From Acidimicrobiia bacterium (GTDB taxonomy: Bacteria > Actinomycetota > Acidimicrobiia > Acidimicrobiales > Poriferisodalaceae): a stretch of DNA of 64,000 nucleotides. Positions 3,836 to 52,850 of this stretch are shown here, piece by piece. The stretch is taken from assembly GCA_022820505.1 (NCBI GenBank), contig JAJEFK010000005.1:1-64000 (forward strand), read 5' to 3'. The notes under the pieces are model-generated. The model saw nothing but the letters and a program-made list of their open reading frames with translations. It ran no database searches and had not been told where the DNA came from. A program made the translations under genes and the position numbers. The first letter of the stretch is position 1, and each line of letters opens with the position of its first letter.

Positions 3836-4061
3836 AGTAGTTCGTACTACACCAATGCCGGCCAGGGCTGCCGATGCGACGTGCGGTCGCGCTCGCCCGG
3901 CCAAATGGATGCGCGACAGCGAGGCAGCGAACCTGATGGTGTTTCGTTGAGCCTTGCTTGAGCCCGCAGGCCGTCATGTGCAGATATGAGCCGACATCAC
4001 AGCTCGCATTCGAGATGTGACGGCCAGCCGATGCTCGATGGCGCTGAGCCTGACAGGGTCG

Positions 4062-5456
4062 TCAGGAGCGGTGGGCGGCTATGGCGGCGAGGGCTTCTTC
4101 GAGGGTTTCGACGCCCACGACGGCGACTGAGGGCTCGGCCACGGCGGTCGCTTCTTCCACCTGGGCGGCGGGCACGAGGAAGAGGTCGGTGCCGGCTCGC
4201 ACGACGGCGTGGGACTTCTGGGGCACGCCGCCGATCGGGCCCACCGAGCCGTCGTGGTGGATGGTGCCGGTGGCGGCGACGTCGAGGTTGCCGGTGAGCG
4301 GCTCGGGCGTGAGGGCGTCGATGACCGACAGCGTGAAGGCGAGGCCGGCTGAGGGGCCGCCGATGTTCTCGATGTGAAGCCGCACGTCGATGGGCGGCTC
4401 GTCGAATTCGACGTGGGTGGTGACGATCACGCCGAGCAGGGCGACGCCGTCGCGGTCGGCCAGCGTGACGGTGACGGTGCGGGTCTGGCCGTCGGGGGCG
4501 AGGGCGGTGAACGTGGCGGTGGCGCCCGGCTCGTGGGCCTTGACCGTGTCGGACAGCTGCTGCGCCGTGGTGATGGCCGTGTCGCCGACCGCTTGCACGA
4601 TGTCGCCTTCGCGCAGGGCGTCGTCGGCCGGGGCGTCGGGCATGACCCTCTCGATGCGGGCGCCGATGGGGGTCATGATCTCGTGGCCCAAGTGCTCGAG
4701 TGCGACGGCCACGGCCACCTGGGTGGACTGGTCCATCTGGAGGCGGCCGGCGTCGCGGTTCTCGGCCACGGTGCGCTCGCCGAGGATGTCTTCGATGTCG
4801 ACCACCTCGAGGGCGCCGTCGAGCCAGCCGCCGATCACCTCGAACAGCGACGGGGCGAAGCTGGTGCGAACGCTGACGAGGGAGATGGAGGCGTCGGAGG
4901 CGTAGGCGGGGTGGTCGCGGACGTCGACGAATTCCTCGATGTCGGCCGTGTGGCCGGGGGCGATGACGGCTTTGTCGTTGAGCGTGATGGTGAAGCCGGT
5001 GATGATGAGGAGCGCCAGGACGAGCATGCTCCCGATGAAGGCGTTGGAGCCGCGGGAATACTGGCGGGGGCGTGGGTGGCCTGATCGCGTGGGAGCGGGG
5101 TCTGGGCGTTCGGCCGGGCCGGCGGCGGTGGTGGCGGTGTCGATTGCGGGAGCGCCGGTGTCGGCAGTGTCGGCGGCGGCGGGAGCGGGGGCGGGCGCGC
5201 CAGTTTCGACGGCGGGAGCGGGCGCGGCTGGCGCCGCGGTGTCGGCGGCGGGCGGCGGGGCGAAGCCCAGGTCGTCGAGTGAGCCGGCGAGGGCGCGCCA
5301 GCCGAGATCCGGGTCATCGTCGGGCCGGTCGTCGGGCTCGCCTTCGGGCGTGCTGCCAGGAGGGGCGTCGAGACGAGCGCCGGGATCGTCTTCCGGCGGG
5401 CCGCCGGTCGCGTCGGTCACAGGCGCACAGCGTGCCATGCGCTCTGTCGCGGGCAC
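4062..5456 (-). CDS. YlbL-type PDZ and Lon-protease-domain membrane protein
   Basis: 464 residues. The N-terminus is a Pro/Ala-rich cytoplasmic stretch of about 140 residues. One membrane span follows (SMLVLALLIITGFTITL). The outer part holds a PDZ domain (PIGARIERVMPDAPADDALREGDIV) and a Lon-type serine protease domain. The catalytic dyad is visible as Ser in GGPSAGLAF and Lys in GGVPQKSHAVV. The family (B. subtilis YlbL; similar actinobacterial proteins) is thought to cleave regulatory membrane or exported proteins. The long disordered N-terminus is unusual, and the start could also be the internal Met codon at 5438. It is divergent from a small membrane protein with only 17 bp between starts. 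Confidence 0.85.
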   Translation of the reverse strand: MPATERMARCAPVTDATGGPPEDDPGARLDAPPGSTPEGEPDDRPDDDPDLGWRALAGSLDDLGFAPPPAADTAAPAAPAPAVETGAPAPAPAAADTADTGAPAIDTATTAAGPAERPDPAPTRSGHPRPRQYSRGSNAFIGSMLVLALLIITGFTITLNDKAVIAPGHTADIEEFVDVRDHPAYASDASISLVSVRTSFAPSLFEVIGGWLDGALEVVDIEDILGERTVAENRDAGRLQMDQSTQVAVAVALEHLGHEIMTPIGARIERVMPDAPADDALREGDIVQAVGDTAITTAQQLSDTVKAHEPGATATFTALAPDGQTRTVTVTLADRDGVALLGVIVTTHVEFDEPPIDVRLHIENIGGPSAGLAFTLSVIDALTPEPLTGNLDVAATGTIHHDGSVGPIGGVPQKSHAVVRAGTDLFLVPAAQVEEATAVAEPSVAVVGVETLEEALAAIAAHRS

Positions 5457-9647: not shown

Positions 9648-10652
9648 TCAGCGGCCGGGGATCGTGTGCGAAGCGTGGAGCGACTCGAAGTTCTCGAGCG
9701 CCCGGCCGGCGCCCAGCACAACCGTCTCGAGCGGCGACTCCGAGCGCAGTACGGGCACACGTGCCTCGGACGCGATGCGCTGGTCGAGGCCCTGCAGCAG
9801 CGAGCCGCCGCCGACCATGAGGGCGCCCGTGTGGATGAGGTCTTGTGCCAGCTCGGGCGGCGCCTCGCCCAGGCATTCCAGGACAGCTTCCACGATGAGC
9901 TCGACCGTGTCGGCCAATGCGGAGCGCACCTCGGTGGGGGTGATGACGAACGTGCGGGGCAGACCCGTCGACAGGTCACGGCCCTTCACCTCGGCGTCGA
10001 ACTTGTCGTCGACCGGCCATGCCGAGCCGATGCTGATCTTCAGTTCCTCCGCCGTGCGCTCGCCGATGGCGATGCCGTGCACCCGGCGGGCGTAGTTCAT
10101 CAGCGCAGTGTCGAAGTCGAACGACCCCACACGGACAGCGCGCAGCGATACGAGGCCGCCGAGCGACACCATGGCGATCTCGGCGGTGCCGCCGCCGATG
10201 TCGATCACCAGCGAGCCGGTGGGCTCGTGGATCGGCAGGCCCGAGCCGATGGCTGCAGCGATCGGCTGCTCGATGAGCCGGACGTCTGACGACCCGGCAC
10301 GCCGGGCCGCCTCGATCACCGCTCGCCGTTCGACCGGGGTGATCAGCGAGGGCACGCAGACGGCGACACGGGTGCGGCCGAAACGGCCGACGCCCACGCC
10401 CTGCAGGATGAGCCGGATCATGCGCTGGGTGATGTCGAAGTCGGTGATGGCGCCATTGCGCAGCGGCCGCGCAGCGATGATGTAGCTCGGCGTGCGCCCG
10501 ATCATCTGCCAGGCCTCGCGCCCCACCGACAGCACGTCGCCAGAACGCTCATTGAGCGCTATGACCGACGGCTCGTTGAAGACGATGCCGCGCCCCCGCT
10601 CGTACACCAGCGTGTTCGCGGTGCCGAGATCGATCGCCAGGTCACGAGCCAG
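9648..10652 (-). CDS. mreB: MreB/Mbl rod-shape actin, apparent CTG start
   Basis: 334 residues of bacterial actin fold, a cytoskeletal ATPase that positions cell-wall synthesis. Phosphate-1 motif DLGTANT is at about residues 8-14, phosphate-2 DIGGGTAEIA is near the middle, and an ILQGVGVGRFGR segment lies between them. The family N-terminus (M)ARDLAIDLGTANTLVY is encoded only if translation begins at the CTG at 10652-10650. The same frame has a TGA 13 codons upstream (10691-10689) and no ATG, GTG or TTG between. AGAGG lies 7 nt before the CTG. Starting at the GTG at 10607 would remove the first nucleotide-binding motif. The start overlaps the upstream gene by 11 nt, so coupling is likely. No mreC or mreD follows. 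Confidence 0.88.
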   Translation of the reverse strand: MARDLAIDLGTANTLVYERGRGIVFNEPSVIALNERSGDVLSVGREAWQMIGRTPSYIIAARPLRNGAITDFDITQRMIRLILQGVGVGRFGRTRVAVCVPSLITPVERRAVIEAARRAGSSDVRLIEQPIAAAIGSGLPIHEPTGSLVIDIGGGTAEIAMVSLGGLVSLRAVRVGSFDFDTALMNYARRVHGIAIGERTAEELKISIGSAWPVDDKFDAEVKGRDLSTGLPRTFVITPTEVRSALADTVELIVEAVLECLGEAPPELAQDLIHTGALMVGGGSLLQGLDQRIASEARVPVLRSESPLETVVLGAGRALENFESLHASHTIPGR

Positions 10653-27721: not shown

Positions 27722-27817
27722 GGAGGTGTCTGAGCGCCTGGTGGGCTCCCCCGCCTTCAAAGCGGGCGGGACGGGCGATCCCCGTCCGGCGGGTTCGATT
27801 CCCGTCCACCTCCGCCA
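27722..27817 (+). tRNA. selC: tRNA-Sec (UCA anticodon)
   Basis: A 96-nt tRNA with the marks of selenocysteine tRNA. The anticodon loop CTTCAAA carries TCA and is closed by a CCCGC/GCGGG stem. The extra arm is long (GGACGGG/CCCGTCC around CGAT). The acceptor arm GGAGGTG pairs with CACCTCC, followed by discriminator G and an encoded CCA (27815-27817). The T arm contains GGTTCGATTCC. It reads in-frame UGA as selenocysteine together with SelA and SelB, encoded 12-15 kb away. Confidence 0.93.
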
Positions 27818-36400: not shown

Positions 36401-36464
36401 CGGTGGGTGACGCTAGCGCAGTGGGCGGTGTTGGCCCGGGGGGCGATGGGGCACTTGTCGGCCC

Positions 36465-36583
36465 GGGCGGCGATGGGGCAGGCTCACCCGTGCTTCAAAC
36501 AGATGAAGCGCTTCGTGCACTTGTTGGGTGTGGCTTGGGGCGCTTCATAACTGCGCGCGGGCGATCCTGCCCCATCGCCCCCC
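36465..36583. repeat. covarying hairpin element, copy 1
   Basis: 119 nt. The outer stem GGGCGGCGATGGGGCAGG (36465-36482) pairs with 36566-36583 with one mismatch. Next come a 4x4 internal loop and CCCG/CGGG. A large conserved internal loop has TGCTTCAAACAG on one side and AACTGCGCG on the other. A perfect 9-bp inner stem, ATGAAGCGC/GCGCTTCAT, closes a variable tip. Part of the left flank is tandemly duplicated (about 36433-36453). It lies between the Mo-enzyme-like gene and the PPOX gene. Copies 2 and 3 keep the loop bases but use other inner-stem bases. Confidence 0.85.
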
Positions 36584-36608
36584 TCGATCGTCTGCGCCTT
36601 ACGGATCG

Positions 36609-38641: not shown

Positions 38642-38817
38642 AACAGCGACTCCCGAATCAGCCCCACATGGGCGAACGTTCTGCGACCGATGCTAGTGCC
38701 ATCTGGCCCTTTTGCACCGGCGAGCGCCGTGCGCCGGTGTTGCCCGGCAGGCCTGGCAGCGTGCCACCGCATGCGCGGATTCGTGGGCCCGCGCACAGCG
38801 CCATTACCCTGCGCTCC

Positions 38818-40011
38818 GTGAGCGCGTCCACCGATGCTCCGGCGAATGACGAGGCGATGATCGCCATCCTGCGGGGCGTCATGGATCCCGAGCTGGGCGA
38901 CAACATCGTCGACCTGGGCATGGTGCGCAACGCCTACCGCGAGGGCACCACCGGGCACGTGACCGTGGCATTGACCACCGCCGGCTGCCCGCTGCGCGCC
39001 ACCATCAAGCGAGACTGCGAGACGAGAGTCGCCGGGCTGGCCGGCATCGAGAACGTGCGGCTGCACTGGGACGAGCTGAACGCTGCCGAGAAAGCCCGTG
39101 TGATGGAACGCGCCCGGCGCACTGCGCGCGACAACGCCGCGCCGACGCAGGTGCACGCCAGCACACGGGTGCTGGCCGTGGCGTCAGGCAAGGGCGGCGT
39201 GGGCAAGTCGTCGGTGACGGTGAACCTGGCTGCGGCGCTGGCCGCACGCGGCTTCGTCGTGGGCGTGCTCGACGCAGACATCTGGGGGTTCAGCATCCCC
39301 CGCATGCTCGGCATGGAGGGGCGTCTCGGCGCCCGTCCCCCGGCCGACGGCGAGGAGCGGGGCAAGATCGTGCCCGACGAGCGCCCTGCCGGCGAGGGCC
39401 TGCTGAAGGTGGTCTCCACCGGGCTGCTGGTGGAGACCGAGGAAACCGCCCTGATGTGGCGGGGGCTCATGCTGGCCAAGGCCGTGGAGCAGTTCCTGCA
39501 CGACGTGGACTGGGGCGAGCTCGACTACCTGCTCATCGACATGCCGCCCGGCACCGGCGACGTGCAGATGGCGCTCGCCCGACTGCTGCCCCAAGCCGAG
39601 ATGCTGGTGGTGACCACCCCGGCGCTGAGCGCGCAGAAGGTGGCCGTGCGCGTGGCCGACATGGCCCGCCGCAGCCACATGCCGATCGTGGGCGTGGTGG
39701 AGAACATGGGTGCGTTCACCGCACCTGACGGCCAGCGGTGGTCGTTCTTCGGCGAGGGCGGCGGGGAGCGCCTGGCTGCCGATCTGGGCGTGCCGCTGCT
39801 GGGTTCGATCCCCTTGGAGCCTGCGGTGTCCGCCGGCGGCGATGCCGGCGAGCCGGTGACTGGCAATGCGCCCGGCGGGCTGGCGGCCGGGGTGTTCGAG
39901 GCGATCACCGAGCTGCTGGTGACCGAGATCTGCCCGCCCGTGGACATGGGCACCTGCACCGCTCGCATGGACGGGCCCATCCCCGTCACGCTCGGCGCTC
40001 GCCGCGGCTGA
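38818..40011 (+). CDS. Mrp/ApbC iron-sulfur carrier ATPase with DUF59
   Basis: 397 residues. The N-terminal DUF59/MIP18 domain (DPELGDNIVDLGMVR, LTTAGCPLRATI) is fused to a Mrp/NBP35 P-loop ATPase with deviant Walker A SGKGGVGKSS (about 122-131) and LIDMPPGTGDVQ. Such proteins store and deliver Fe-S clusters. The usual CxxC near the C-terminus is not obvious; single Cys residues occur at EICPP and GTCTA. GTG at 38818 is chosen because TACCCT (38805-38810) is 7 nt upstream. Followed 14 nt later by selA. Confidence 0.92.
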   Translation: MSASTDAPANDEAMIAILRGVMDPELGDNIVDLGMVRNAYREGTTGHVTVALTTAGCPLRATIKRDCETRVAGLAGIENVRLHWDELNAAEKARVMERARRTARDNAAPTQVHASTRVLAVASGKGGVGKSSVTVNLAAALAARGFVVGVLDADIWGFSIPRMLGMEGRLGARPPADGEERGKIVPDERPAGEGLLKVVSTGLLVETEETALMWRGLMLAKAVEQFLHDVDWGELDYLLIDMPPGTGDVQMALARLLPQAEMLVVTTPALSAQKVAVRVADMARRSHMPIVGVVENMGAFTAPDGQRWSFFGEGGGERLAADLGVPLLGSIPLEPAVSAGGDAGEPVTGNAPGGLAAGVFEAITELLVTEICPPVDMGTCTARMDGPIPVTLGARRG

Positions 40012-40025
40012 AGCGAGGCCGGGCG

Positions 40026-41339
40026 ATGAGGCCGCCGTCGGTGAACGACCTGGCGCTGCGGATCGCGGACGCGGGCTTGCCGCACCCGCTGCTGGTCATC
40101 GCCGCCCGGGCAGCCATCGCCGCCGGCGACCCCGACTCGGCGGCCGACGAAGCGCACCGGCTGCGCCGCAGCCTGCTGGGGCCTGCGGTGAACGCCACCG
40201 GCGTCTTGCTGCACACGAATCTGGGCCGAGCCCCGCTCGGGAATCAACACAGCCGAGCCCCGCTCGGCCATCAACACAGCCGAGCGCTGCTTGATCTGGA
40301 ACTTGACGACCAGCCGGTGCGGTTCAGCAACCTGGAGTTCGACCTGGCGTCGGGCCGGCGCGGCTCGCGCACCACGCACGCGTCGCTGCTGCTGGCCACG
40401 CTGACCGGCGCCGAAGCAGCGCTCGTGGTCAACAACTGCGCCGCCGCGGTGACGCTCGTGCTGGCGGCCCTGGCCCGTGACCGCGGCGTGGCCGTGTCAC
40501 GCGGCGAGCTGGTGGAGATCGGCGGCGGCTTCCGGGTGCCCGAGGTGATGGAGCAGTCAGGCGCACAGCTCGTGGAGGTGGGCACCACCAACCGCACCCG
40601 GGCCGCCGACTACCGGGCCGCCGCCGAGCGGGACGACATCGCGCTGCTGCTGAAGGTGCACCCCTCCAACTACCGCATCACCGGCTTCACCGAGGAAGCC
40701 GCCGTTGCAGACCTGGCTGCGATCGGGCCGCCGGTGGTGTCCGACCTGGGCTCGGGCCTGCTGGATGAACGCTGCGATTGGCTGGGGCAGCGCCCCGACT
40801 GGCTGGCCGGCGAGCCGGGTGCCCGCCAGACGCTGGCAGCGGGAGCGGCGCTGGTCACGTTCTCGGGCGACAAGCTCATGGGCGGGCCCCAAGCCGGGAT
40901 CATCTGCGGCCGGGCCGACCTGATCGCCGCCTGCGCAGCGCACCCGCTGATGCGGGCCTTCCGGCCCGGATCGCTGGTGCTGGACGCGTTGCAGTCGGTG
41001 GCACTGGCGTACCTGCGCCGCGATGCCGACGCGATCCCGTTCTGGCGCATGGCCAGGGTGCCGGTTGACGAGCTGGCCCAGCGAGCCGAGGCGCTCGGCG
41101 TGGGCCGGCCGTCGCGAACGACTGCGCTGGCGGGTGCAGGGTCGCTGCCCGGCCAAGAGATTCCCTCCGCGGGCATCGAGCTCGACGGCGACTACGCGGC
41201 TGCGCTGCGGGCGTTCGACCCGCCGGTCATCGCCCGCGTCAACGAGCAGACCACCGTGATCGACCTGCGCACCGTGGATCCCGCCGATGACACCGTCGTG
41301 GCGGCTGCCGTCCGCCAAGCACTCGGCGAGCAGGCCTGA
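40026..41339 (+). CDS. selA: L-seryl-tRNA(Sec) selenium transferase
   Basis: 437 residues. A PLP enzyme that turns Ser-tRNA(Sec) into Sec-tRNA(Sec) with selenophosphate. Family blocks are NATGVLLHTNLGRAPL, SNLEFDLASGRRGSR, VNNCAAAVTLVL, LVEVGTTNRTRAADY, KVHPSNYRI, and the PLP lysine K283 in SGDKLMGGPQAG. Two 27-bp palindromic repeats add about 18 residues after GRAPLG (RAPLGNQHS, RAPLGHQHS). They replace a helix that is usually of normal length, so folding there may be looser. It lies 37 bp before selB. Confidence 0.93.
   Translation: MRPPSVNDLALRIADAGLPHPLLVIAARAAIAAGDPDSAADEAHRLRRSLLGPAVNATGVLLHTNLGRAPLGNQHSRAPLGHQHSRALLDLELDDQPVRFSNLEFDLASGRRGSRTTHASLLLATLTGAEAALVVNNCAAAVTLVLAALARDRGVAVSRGELVEIGGGFRVPEVMEQSGAQLVEVGTTNRTRAADYRAAAERDDIALLLKVHPSNYRITGFTEEAAVADLAAIGPPVVSDLGSGLLDERCDWLGQRPDWLAGEPGARQTLAAGAALVTFSGDKLMGGPQAGIICGRADLIAACAAHPLMRAFRPGSLVLDALQSVALAYLRRDADAIPFWRMARVPVDELAQRAEALGVGRPSRTTALAGAGSLPGQEIPSAGIELDGDYAAALRAFDPPVIARVNEQTTVIDLRTVDPADDTVVAAAVRQALGEQA
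40226..40279 (+). repeat. 27-bp in-frame palindromic tandem repeat within selA
   Basis: Units 40226-40252 and 40253-40279 differ at few positions, and the start of a third follows. Each begins with CCGAGC-CCC-GCTCGG, a 6-bp inverted repeat, then an AATCAACACAG-like spacer. The insertion keeps the selA frame. Confidence 0.85.
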
Positions 41340-41376
41340 ACCGAGAAGCCTCGACGGCATCGGGCAAGCTGGCAGC

Positions 41377-43101
41377 GTGCACATCGTCGGCACTGCAGGC
41401 CACGTGGACCACGGCAAGTCGACGCTGGTGCGCGCCCTCACCGGCACCGACCCTGACCGGCTGGCCGAGGAGAAGGAGCGCGGGCTCACCATCGACCTCG
41501 GCTTCGCGTTCTGCACGCTGCCGTCGGGCCGGCAGGTCAGCTTCGTGGACGTGCCCGGTCACATCCGCTTCGTGAAGAACATGCTGGCCGGCGTGGGGGC
41601 GGTCGACGCTTCCCTGTTCGTGGTGGCAGCGCCGGAGGGCTGGAAACCGCAGTCGGCCGAGCACCTGGCGATCCTGGAACTGCTCGGCATCTCGCACGGC
41701 GTGGTGGTGCTCAGCCAGATCGGCCTCGTCGACGACGAGCTGGCCGAGCTGGCCCGGCTGGACGTGCTGGAGCATGTCGACGGCACGTTCCTGGAGCATG
41801 CGCCGGTGGTGGCCACCGACGCGATCGACGGCACCGGTCTGGACGAGCTGCGCAGCGCGCTCGACGACCTGTGCGCGGCCACGCCTACCGCAGCCGACCG
41901 TGACCGGCCCCGCCTGTGGATCGACCGGTCGTTTGCCGCGACCGGGGCGGGGCGGATCGTGACCGGCACGCTCGCGGGCGGCAGCATCTCGGCCGGCGAC
42001 GAGCTGCGTACGGCGCCCGGCGGCCGGGCGGCCCGGGTGCGGGCGATCCAGACCCAGAGCACCGCAGTCGAGCGCATCGGTCCGGGGCACCGCGTCGCGC
42101 TCAATCTCACCGGCGTCGACGCCGACGACCTGGGCCGCGGCATCGCCCTCGTGCGATCCGACCAGTGGCACCACACCCGCAGCGTCGACGTGGAGCTGAC
42201 CGTGCTCGGCAGCCTCGGCAGCGATGTGACCCGGCGGGGCGCCTACGCCCTGTACCTGGGCTCGGGCGAGTGGCCGGTGCGGCTGCGCGTGCTCGGGCCC
42301 GAGCGCATCGGCCCCGGCGAGACCGGCTACGCCCGGCTGCACCTGCCGGTCGCACTGCCGCTTGTGATGGGAGACCGCTTCGTGCTGCGCGACTTCGGCC
42401 GGGGACAGACCGTGGGCGGCGGCAGCGTGCTCGATCCCGATCCGCAGCTGCGGGCTGCGGTGGCCCAGCCCGACGCCCGTGTCGAGCGCATGATCGCCGA
42501 GCGCGGGTGGATCGAGGCGACGCAGCTCGAGCGGCTGACCGGCGAGCGGGTGGAGCCGGTGCTGGGCGGCTGGGTGGCGGCGCCGGAACTGGTCGAGGCA
42601 CTGGTGGACGATCTTCGGGAGCAGATCGAGCGCGCCGGTCCCCTCGGCTTGGACCTGGCCGGGCTCGACGAACGTCAGCGGCTGGCGATCGGCACACTCG
42701 ACGGCGTCGCCATCGAAACCGGCCGGGCCCGACCGGCAGACGCCGCCGACGTCCTCGCCGACCACCCGGTCATCGCCGAGCTGGCCGCAGCGCCCTTCTC
42801 CCCGCCCGCACCCAGCGGTGTCAGCCAGCGGGAGCTCCTGGCGCTGGCAGCGCGCGGCGACCTCGTGCACGCGGACGGGGTCTGGTTCGCGGCGTCCGCC
42901 ATCGCGGCCGCAGCCGAGCGAATCGCCGGGCTGCTCAGCGCTCAGCCCGACGGCGTCACCGTGGCCGAGATCCGCGAAGAACTCGGCACCACGCGGAAGT
43001 ACGCGCTGCCGCTGGTGGGCTACCTGGACCGGACAGGGGTGACGCGGCGGCGCGGGGACCTGCGCATCGGCGGGCCGCGGCTGCCCGAAGTATCTGGCTG
43101 A
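41377..43101 (+). CDS. selB: selenocysteine-specific elongation factor
   Basis: 574 residues. The GTPase domain has AGHVDHGKSTLVRALTG, EKERGLTIDLGFA and DVPGHIRFVKNMLAG. Domains 2 and 3 follow (GAGRIVTGTLAGGSI; MGDRFVLRDFGRGQTVGGG). The C-terminal winged helices end TRKYALPLVGYLDRTGVTRRRGDLR and bind the SECIS hairpin next to UGA. SelB brings Sec-tRNA to the ribosome. The GTG at 41377 gives the family N-terminus (HIVGTAGHVDHGKS). Confidence 0.95.
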   Translation: MHIVGTAGHVDHGKSTLVRALTGTDPDRLAEEKERGLTIDLGFAFCTLPSGRQVSFVDVPGHIRFVKNMLAGVGAVDASLFVVAAPEGWKPQSAEHLAILELLGISHGVVVLSQIGLVDDELAELARLDVLEHVDGTFLEHAPVVATDAIDGTGLDELRSALDDLCAATPTAADRDRPRLWIDRSFAATGAGRIVTGTLAGGSISAGDELRTAPGGRAARVRAIQTQSTAVERIGPGHRVALNLTGVDADDLGRGIALVRSDQWHHTRSVDVELTVLGSLGSDVTRRGAYALYLGSGEWPVRLRVLGPERIGPGETGYARLHLPVALPLVMGDRFVLRDFGRGQTVGGGSVLDPDPQLRAAVAQPDARVERMIAERGWIEATQLERLTGERVEPVLGGWVAAPELVEALVDDLREQIERAGPLGLDLAGLDERQRLAIGTLDGVAIETGRARPADAADVLADHPVIAELAAAPFSPPAPSGVSQRELLALAARGDLVHADGVWFAASAIAAAAERIAGLLSAQPDGVTVAEIREELGTTRKYALPLVGYLDRTGVTRRRGDLRIGGPRLPEVSG

Positions 43102-46677: not shown

Positions 46678-46704
46678 TGCTCAGAATCTGAGTGTGCATA
46701 AAAT
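46674..46704 (+). promoter_or_regulatory. promoter and palindrome before the recombinase
   Basis: TTGATG (46674-46679) and TAAAAT (46699-46704) form a possible promoter with a 19-bp spacer. Inside the spacer lies a perfect inverted repeat, CTCAGA-A-TCTGAG (46680-46692). The stretch from 46693 to 46725 is A/T-rich, unlike the surroundings, which fits the edge of acquired DNA. The palindrome may be an operator or part of a recombination site. Confidence 0.5.
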
Positions 46705-46718
46705 ACCGGAATAATGAT

Positions 46719-47507
46719 ATGTTACCGCTCGTGACGCGGGCGGTCGGCTCTCCTCAAGGCACTCCTAGGCAAGCCAGTGAATCAATAGCTGGGGTGGTGC
46801 TCAGCTACGCCCGCTGCTCTACCTCAGAACAGGGCCGAAGCGGCTTCGGCTTGGATGCCCAGCACGACGCTGTGGACGCTTGGGCAGCAGTCAGCGGCCG
46901 AACGGTTGAGCACCACAGCGAGGACGGCGCCTCGGGGTTGCTGGCGCCCGACGCCCGCCCGGTGCTGGCCGCACTGCTGAACCGTCTCGCAGACGGCGAC
47001 AACCCCGCCGACACGCTCGCAGTGAGCCGGCTCGACCGTCTCGGCCGCAGCGCTCTTGACGTGCTGAGCCTGCTGGACCGCGCCGAGCGCGAGAGATGGC
47101 ACGTCGTCATGCTCGATGTCGCCGTGGACACCACCACCCCCGTCGGCCTGATGGTCGCCACGGTGATGGCCGCTATGGCCCGCATGGAACGCGACATGAC
47201 AGCCCAACGCACCCGCGATGCCCTCGCCAGGAAGGCCGCTACCGGAGCACGGCTCGGTCGTCCTGTCTCTGACGCCACGCGGGCTGCCGCCGCGCGAGCC
47301 GAGGCTCTCGCCGCCGAGGGCCTCAGCCAGCACGCCATAGCCGACAAGCTCACTGCGGAACAGTGGCCCCGCGCCACCCCCGCCGCTGGGCCCTGGACTG
47401 CCCGCGCCGTCGGCCTCGCTCTGCACTCACTGCACCTCGACCGCGCCGCCGAGCAAGCAGCCGTCGCCCATCGCAGCGGCGGCACCACATCGGCGCCCGA
47501 TGCCTGA
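46719..47507 (+). CDS. serine recombinase (resolvase/invertase type)
   Basis: 262 residues. The catalytic domain begins LSYARCSTSEQGRSGFGLDAQ, with the nucleophilic Ser in YARCS and the Arg. VSRLDRLGRSALDVL and MARMERDMTAQRTRDAL are the other conserved blocks. A C-terminal helix-turn-helix (AAEGLSQHAIADKLTAE) binds DNA. It is larger than Tn3 resolvases and much shorter than large serine integrases. Start choice is uncertain: ATG 46719, GTG 46692 or a later GTG at 46795, where the domain begins. The N-terminal 25 residues are not conserved-looking. Confidence 0.85.
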   Translation: MLPLVTRAVGSPQGTPRQASESIAGVVLSYARCSTSEQGRSGFGLDAQHDAVDAWAAVSGRTVEHHSEDGASGLLAPDARPVLAALLNRLADGDNPADTLAVSRLDRLGRSALDVLSLLDRAERERWHVVMLDVAVDTTTPVGLMVATVMAAMARMERDMTAQRTRDALARKAATGARLGRPVSDATRAAAARAEALAAEGLSQHAIADKLTAEQWPRATPAAGPWTARAVGLALHSLHLDRAAEQAAVAHRSGGTTSAPDA

Positions 47508-51221: not shown

Positions 51222-51226
51222 TTACC

Positions 51227-51343
51227 GGGGTGGGCGGGGGCAGGCGCACCCGTGCTTCAAACAAGCGCAGCGCCGCCCGCTACGAGGCGGACGGGCTGTG
51301 GCGCTGCGAACTGCGCGCGGGCACACCTGCCCCCGCCCACCCC
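51227..51343. repeat. covarying hairpin element, copy 2
   Basis: 117 nt. Outer stem GGGGTGGGCGGGGGCAGG (51227-51244) pairs perfectly over 18 bp with 51326-51343. Then a 4x4 internal loop (CGCA/CACA), CCCG/CGGG, the conserved internal loop TGCTTCAAACAAG / AACTGCGCG, and an inner stem CGCAGCGCC/GGCGCTGCG. It begins 16 bp past the lysC stop and ends 35 bp before the asd -10 box, so it may end lysC transcripts. Confidence 0.88.
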
Positions 51344-51359
51344 TCGTTCCGCGTGGATC

Positions 51360-52586: not shown

Positions 52587-52657
52587 GTTGGGCGAGGGTA
52601 TCGGGGGGGCTTGCGGGCGCTTTCTGATCAGGTGGGTTCGGGGTGGAGGATGCGTCC

Positions 52658-52774
52658 GGGGTGGGCGGGGGCAGGCGCACCCGTGCTTCAGACAAGCGCA
52701 GCGCCGCCCGCTGCAGGGTGGATGGGCTTTGGCGCTGCGAACTGCGCGCGGGCACACCTGCCCCCGCCCTCCCC
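52658..52774. repeat. covarying hairpin element, copy 3
   Basis: 117 nt. Outer stem 52658-52675 pairs with 52757-52774 with a single mismatch. The CCCG/CGGG stem, the loop TGCTTCAGACAAG / AACTGCGCG and the inner stem CGCAGCGCC/GGCGCTGCG are as in copy 2, with one loop change (AAA to AGA). It lies about 58 bp upstream of the lysC -10 box and 76 bp before the divergent cyclophilin gene. Confidence 0.88.
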
Positions 52775-52850
52775 TTGTTGCTTTGTGTCTTTGCCCGAGG
52801 TGTCGACTGGGCGTCGGTAGTGTGACCGTCGGCACATCTCAGGGGCACTT

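Follow-up and report, generated by a model that had tools for sequence, protein, structure and literature searches.

The window analysed here, a stretch of 64,000 nucleotides from the genome of an Acidimicrobiia bacterium, contains three copies of an intergenic hairpin at 36465, 51227 and 52658, and reading the sequence at each site directly confirmed that all three are real. Copy 1 occupies a gap between two minus-strand genes, and copy 2 is located between lysC and asd, both on the minus strand, upstream of asd and 8 nt past the stop codon of lysC, in agreement with its earlier placement directly after that gene. Copy 3 is likewise intergenic and lies upstream of lysC (minus strand), with a cyclophilin gene (plus strand) on its other side, so that its two neighbors are divergent. 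The identities of asd, lysC and the cyclophilin gene were confirmed. The units and their parts are as follows:

36438 to 36459, plus strand: partial tandem copy of the left arm, GGGGGGCGATGGGGCACTTGTC, just before copy 1
36463 to 36590, plus strand: copy 1, whole unit, with an inner stem of type A (GATGAAGCGC); 129.1 bits
36487 to 36501, plus strand: copy 1, left strand of the core, CCCGTGCTTCAAACA
36549 to 36561, plus strand: copy 1, right strand of the core, AACTGCGCGCGGG
51225 to 51348, plus strand: copy 2, whole unit, consisting of the 5' foot CC, outer arms, core, inner hairpin and 3' foot TCGTT (covariance-model match at 51222-51351, 122 bits)
51227 to 51244, plus strand: copy 2, 5' arm of the outer stem, GGGGTGGGCGGGGGCAGG
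51249 to 51263, plus strand: copy 2, left strand of the core, CCCGTGCTTCAAACA, invariant in alignments A2 and A4
51309 to 51321, plus strand: copy 2, right strand of the core, AACTGCGCGCGGG
51326 to 51343, plus strand: copy 2, 3' arm of the outer stem, CCTGCCCCCGCCCACCCC
52656 to 52779, plus strand: copy 3, whole unit; covariance-model score 116.8 bits
52680 to 52694, plus strand: copy 3, left strand of the core, CCCGTGCTTCAGACA
52740 to 52752, plus strand: copy 3, right strand of the core, AACTGCGCGCGGG

Elsewhere in the window, a selenocysteine tRNA was matched by Rfam at 27722-27813 and, with the selA- and selB-like genes recognized by open reading frame (ORF) reading at 38668-43101, makes up a selenocysteine system; an ORF at 46692-47507 resembles a serine recombinase of the resolvase family.

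All three copies contain the motif CACCCGTGCTTCARACA, which has exactly three matches in the window, all on the plus strand (0.42 expected at up to three mismatches), consistent with the common strand reported in the initial annotation. Their folding z-scores against dinucleotide shuffles were -6.3, -6.9 and -5.4, and none of 200 shuffles reached the native stability. In copy 2, the two arms form an outer stem of 18 bp, separated by a CGCA x CACA internal loop from the CCCG/CGGG pairing; its left strand reads TTCAAACA (the counterpart in copy 3 is TTCAGACA) and its right strand reads AACTGCGCG, followed by the inner stem. The unpaired strands that had been described as conserved are present in each of the three copies, as CCCGTGCTTCARACA on the left and AACTGCGCGCGGG on the right. 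The previously noted CCCG/CGGG pairing also exists, but it belongs to a longer, 7-bp helix, CCCGTGC/GCGCGGG, with one T.G. Similarly, the proposed single architecture holds for the layout but not for the sequence of the inner stem, of which there are two main types (GATGAAGCGC... and GCGCAGCGCC...), and the count of three holds for the window but not for the 3.29-Mb source genome, where an exact motif search detected seven copies and a covariance model an eighth.

Comparison of the copies across the family revealed a unit of about 76-130 bp that is built, from the outside inward, of feet, an outer stem, a ring (CCGTGC/GCGCGG, a loop and a CA/TG step) and an inner hairpin. The feet consist of CC on the 5' side of the stem and T(C/G/A)(C/G)G on its 3' side; in the genus, CC is conserved in 33-35 of 37 copies and the T in 36 of 37, with a similar trend in the other carriers. 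Both the outer stem, usually 15-25 bp long (a few copies have arms of 40-60 bp), and the inner hairpin of 10-60 nt are free in sequence, and different inner stems were found even at orthologous sites (L009 versus L025/L037, and copy 1 versus L034). The ring is invariant, with CCGTGC pairing to GCGCGG with one fixed T.G, and in the variant CCCATGC/GCGTGGG one pair is changed while the T.G is retained. It also includes the unpaired loop, TCAAA or TTCAAA opposite C, and then the CA/TG step. In the family alignments the loop bases are more conserved than the stems. The core stays constant across phyla, the arms and inner stem are unrelated between groups, and each half of the core is an imperfect inverted repeat of the other. 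Three hairpins of locus L116 in genome G005, at 4001-4120, 5149-5268 and 9771-9894 (minus strand), share inner stem type B and have another core (CTGGGCGACA ... AAATACGCCCAG), perhaps that of a sister family. At the end of contig JAJDEP010000013.1 (L191), the element is embedded in a perfect inverted repeat, which extends over at least 113 bp up to the contig boundary and is either a fold-back artefact or a real long palindrome.

The covariance-model search advised in the initial annotation yielded further copies in the source genome, in the genus and in other phyla. Ten of the 11 genomes of the genus (Acidimicrobiia MAGs) carry the repeat, with about 48 full copies, and the exact motif was found in none of the 50 genomes sampled outside the genus but within the family and order. 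At the level of the phylum, weak matches in other families share GTGCTCAAACAG ... GGAACTGCGCGCGG and differ in their stems. A cross-phylum scan of 85,000 species genomes with the pattern TCAAACA-N(16-46)-AACTGCGCGCGG returned at least 115 matching stretches. Among the matches listed, most are flanked by inverted arms of 15-29 bp, and almost all of these armed matches carry CCGTGC before TCAAACA, though this hexamer was absent from the search pattern. The shared core reads CCGTGC-TCAAACA-(inner hairpin)-AACTGCGCGCGG, with inner and outer stems that are unrelated between groups. The armed matches listed belong to Coriobacteriia (Collinsella, Olsenella, Enorma, Eggerthellaceae and Atopobiaceae), Omnitrophota, a Planctomycetota MAG and a few unplaced MAGs; the repeat family spans at least three bacterial phyla. 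Pattern matches without arms, e.g. in Pseudomonas, look like chance. A second covariance model, R2, built on alignment A4 for the wider family, detected it in 21 of 396 Actinomycetota genomes (11 genera). The same model counted at least 101 copies in RUG13877, a Coriobacteriaceae MAG from the rumen, 4 in the Planctomycetota MAG and, in five MAGs of Omnitrophota, 12, 14, 10, 1 and 10. Among viral records, IMG/VR gave no match to three core patterns, phages gave no match and plasmids no full match, and a phage- or plasmid-borne element was rejected on these grounds.

The repeat prefers gene 3' ends. Its copies in the genus lie in intergenic gaps, commonly 5-20 nt off a stop codon, and occur in either orientation relative to genes about equally. 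With genes called by a simple home-made codon-usage finder, which may be wrong in single cases, the genus sites were classified by gene context as << (16), >< (15), >> (12) and <> (8), and none of the 48 classified sites in Coriobacteriia lay between divergent genes. Copies in plus orientation in Coriobacteriia are located about 16-28 nt past the upstream stop codon. Many copies in this class form convergent dimers, of which the source genome has none; the close pairs there are always plus then minus, with 84-298 bp between the cores.

Orthologous sites in relatives further revealed how the unit comes and goes. Site 1 is empty in five relatives (G002, G003, G005, G008 and G009), site 2 in four (G001, G003, G004 and G005) and site 3 in eight, being filled only in G000 and G004. 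Since both outer arms are missing at empty sites 1-3, the unit is present or absent as a whole and would arrive or leave together, and since copies 2 and 3 are 93% identical across 124 nt, outer arms included, units would also duplicate whole. Presence and absence could partly reflect loss, and the intergenic DNA around the empty sites is too diverged to define a target duplication. Insertion into a pre-existing terminator or palindrome and inverted duplication of the native flank at insertion were both ruled out by empty sites that hold neither arm. In the Eggerthellaceae-type genus that includes G232, two species lack the unit at one site, again without either arm there, several others carry it and two have it inverted. 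Tandem half-units and one nested copy were also observed, with solo core halves occurring as tandem half-units. At one insertion site, L280 and L278 carry the element in the opposite orientation to L276 and L275, with a leftover arm adjoining. At site 1 in L259 (G010:C24:53400-54300), L260 and L256 (G004 contig ends), the left half-unit CCCCGGGGTGCGCTGGGGCAGGCTCACCCGTGCGGTTGTCAC (42 bp) stands in tandem; this array breaks the G010 and G004 assemblies and is longer there than beside copy 1 of the window. In G002, G009 and G010 (L249, L244 and L250), element copies or their remnants border a segment of about 1 kb in the lysC-asd gap that contains a DUF3467 gene along with another small gene.

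Across 28 copies from the genus, 95.5% of the cells pair and 23 of the 40 pairs have changed on both sides; none of 500 shuffles was as high, and no shuffle or slide came near this value. The grounds on which the element might have been dismissed at the outset, namely no further copies, no base-pair covariation and loop bases no more conserved than stems, are all contradicted by these data. Ortholog comparisons, counted as pairs of sequences and not as independent events, gave 131 double compensated changes, 98 single A.C, 52 other single and 13 G.T changes. Outer-stem pairs jump between Watson-Crick types almost without a G.U step on the plus strand. The outer-stem mismatches on this strand comprise 76 A.C versus 4 G.T in the genus and 67 versus 25 elsewhere (the latter mainly within three pairs of the core), an asymmetry that recurs among the ortholog differences (98 versus 13) and that template switching alone would not predict; coming from related sequences, it is a hint of a pairing constraint on minus-strand RNA. 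Moreover, the strand clues conflict, as the fixed T.G of the core favors the plus strand, whereas A.C in the arms (G.U on minus-strand RNA) favors the minus strand. Template switching is known to yield arm homogenization, stem extension and spacer inversion (PMC8794818, PMC8604942), and arms that vary between sites and orthologs yet stay complementary, together with cores flipped in place, are its signature. Because the compensated changes fit template switching, covariation by itself is no proof of an RNA function. The conserved unpaired bases, however, are unexplained by template switching, which implies their recognition by something.

These findings suggest, with a probability that we put at roughly 0.6, a dispersed, REP-like palindromic repeat that is non-autonomous and is moved in trans via recognition of its folded core. 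A REP-like sequence, a mobile miniature element and a noncoding RNA had all been suggested earlier for the hairpin; a new structured element is supported, and a REP-like or mobile nature is favored over a noncoding RNA, since template switching can produce covariation (PMC8794818, PMC8604942) and insertions occur in both orientations relative to genes. In the proposed mechanism, an enzyme supplied in trans would recognize the ring and feet in folded DNA, either single-stranded or cruciform, and would move or copy the whole unit. The arms would need only to pair, hence the drift of their sequence. One arm is strongly suggested to be re-copied from the other, either by template switching at the hairpin or when a folded intermediate is filled in, a process that would keep complementarity, flip the core in place, extend the arms and create tandem half-units. 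Insertions would survive mainly beside stop codons and, once there, might terminate or stabilize transcripts as a side effect. We also consider, as a tentative and rather doubtful extension, a cross-phylum class of mobile DNA in which only a folded mid-stem ring is conserved, the arms are re-made complementary at each move and the enzyme family is new to small palindromic repeats.

No helper gene for the repeat was found among neighboring proteins, by a search for Y1_Tnp or among the genes between copies. In particular, no transposase family is prominent in the most frequent Pfam families of 96 neighboring proteins, no gene was found between core halves that would mark an autonomous version, and in the 101-copy genome the genes between opposed copies read, by eye, as housekeeping genes. 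Small palindromic repeats are common in bacteria, but only those linked to RAYT have a known dedicated transposase, the CGTC type having none (PMC3733652). With a clear core that can be searched for, a lineage with at least 101 copies in one genome and clear presence and absence at orthologous sites, the presumed enzyme behind the repeat can be hunted. The repeat also carries a caution, in that template switching in DNA can produce the kind of stem covariation that commonly passes as proof of an RNA function (PMC8794818).

A structured RNA element at transcript 3' ends, serving as a stabilizer, processing site or terminator, with an internal loop that binds a conserved protein and stems that covary for folding, would account for the covariation unmatched by 500 shuffles, for the conserved unpaired bases and for the stop-codon neighborhood, including, in Coriobacteriia, the lack of divergent sites and the position of plus-orientation copies about 16-28 nt past the upstream stop. 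The mismatch asymmetry, which would be G.U in a minus-strand RNA, keeps this explanation alive, although we regard it as unlikely, given that copies face either way relative to genes, that copy 3 lies between divergent genes, that the core T.G and the arm mismatches disagree on the strand and that double compensated changes outnumber plus-strand G.U-type singles. In addition, most genes have no copy, and orthologous sites freely lose theirs. Rfam 15 holds no family matching at gathering score, and relaxed searches gave only sub-threshold matches, mostly to eukaryotic miRNA; a known RNA family was rejected on this basis.

The core halves (CCGTGCTCAAACA / CCGCGCGCAGTT) could also be viewed as short imperfect terminal inverted repeats of a palindrome-targeting, DDE-type transposon, with the outer stem as its target. 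Such a conventional MITE would fit the inverted relation of the two halves and outer stems that vary from site to site, with arms not common to unrelated copies; it is nevertheless improbable, as empty sites have no palindrome or arm, copies 2 and 3 carry the same arms to a new site, and no full-length form whose halves enclose a transposase was detected. Still harder to credit is membership in a known REP/REPIN system mobilized by RAYT (a Y1 tyrosine transposase), even though an intergenic palindrome near stop codons, with feet and dimers, shows REP habits (PMC3733652). Stem, length and tag all differ from such systems, Y1_Tnp (PF01797) is absent from all 11 genomes of the genus, and in other carriers no repeat copy lies within about 1.5 kb of any of the 28 Y1_Tnp genes, so RAYT mobilization was rejected. 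Moreover, the inverted repeat around the Y1_Tnp gene of G201 is a different one that contains GGGGACAG, an arrangement resembling known TIRtrons. In L271, TGGCATAAAAGGGGACAGTCCCC inverted repeats at 1406-1438 and 2227-2259 flank a Y1_Tnp gene in a TIRtron-like manner.

The family is apparently undescribed. Searches by sequence and by topic in the main texts of openly available papers returned nothing matching; a prior listing is possible, and PMC8040213 lists 250 palindromic microbiome candidates. The closest kind to the repeat proposed here are the REP/BIME/REPIN elements of the GTAG and CGTC families (PMC3733652, PMC3116915). Both are dispersed imperfect palindromes with unpaired feet that are intergenic and lie within about 20 nt of stop codons, and both occur as singletons, inverted dimers and clusters, patchily across phyla; the habits of REPs are thus reproduced in intergenic placement, proximity to 3' ends and, in Coriobacteriia, inverted dimers. 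Like the new repeat, CGTC families have no known transposase. The new repeat is, however, larger (about 76-130 bp versus 20-40 bp), has a longer outer stem (mostly 15-25 bp versus 5-13 bp) and, unlike REPs, places an invariant mid-stem ring between arms of free sequence. It has no GTAG/CGTC end tag, with CGTCC preceding some copies only, and the arrangement of a REPtron/RAYT, a Y1 gene flanked by the repeat, was not seen.

Intrinsic terminators resemble the new repeat as GC-rich hairpins after stop codons, often between convergent genes, yet the repeat has no consistent T run (its 3' foot is TCGTT or variants), and it differs further in its conserved internal loop, in the divergent-gene site of copy 3 and in having only eight copies in the genome. 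Integron attC sites are recognized as folded single strands in which extrahelical bases are conserved and the inner hairpin varies; they conserve the outer R boxes (AAC/GTT) and mark gene cassettes. The folded plan of the new repeat is similar, but its conserved part is central, its outer stem is free and it forms no cassette array. Correia, BOX and RPE elements are mid-size, intergenic, palindromic repeats that are probably mobilized in trans. ERIC/RU-1 (127 bp; PMC2759123) is similar in length, intergenic, palindromic and probably also mobilized in trans. By their descriptions, all four are set apart by being known from one or a few related groups and by arms common to their copies, whereas the new repeat has site-specific arms and only its ring in common, across phyla.
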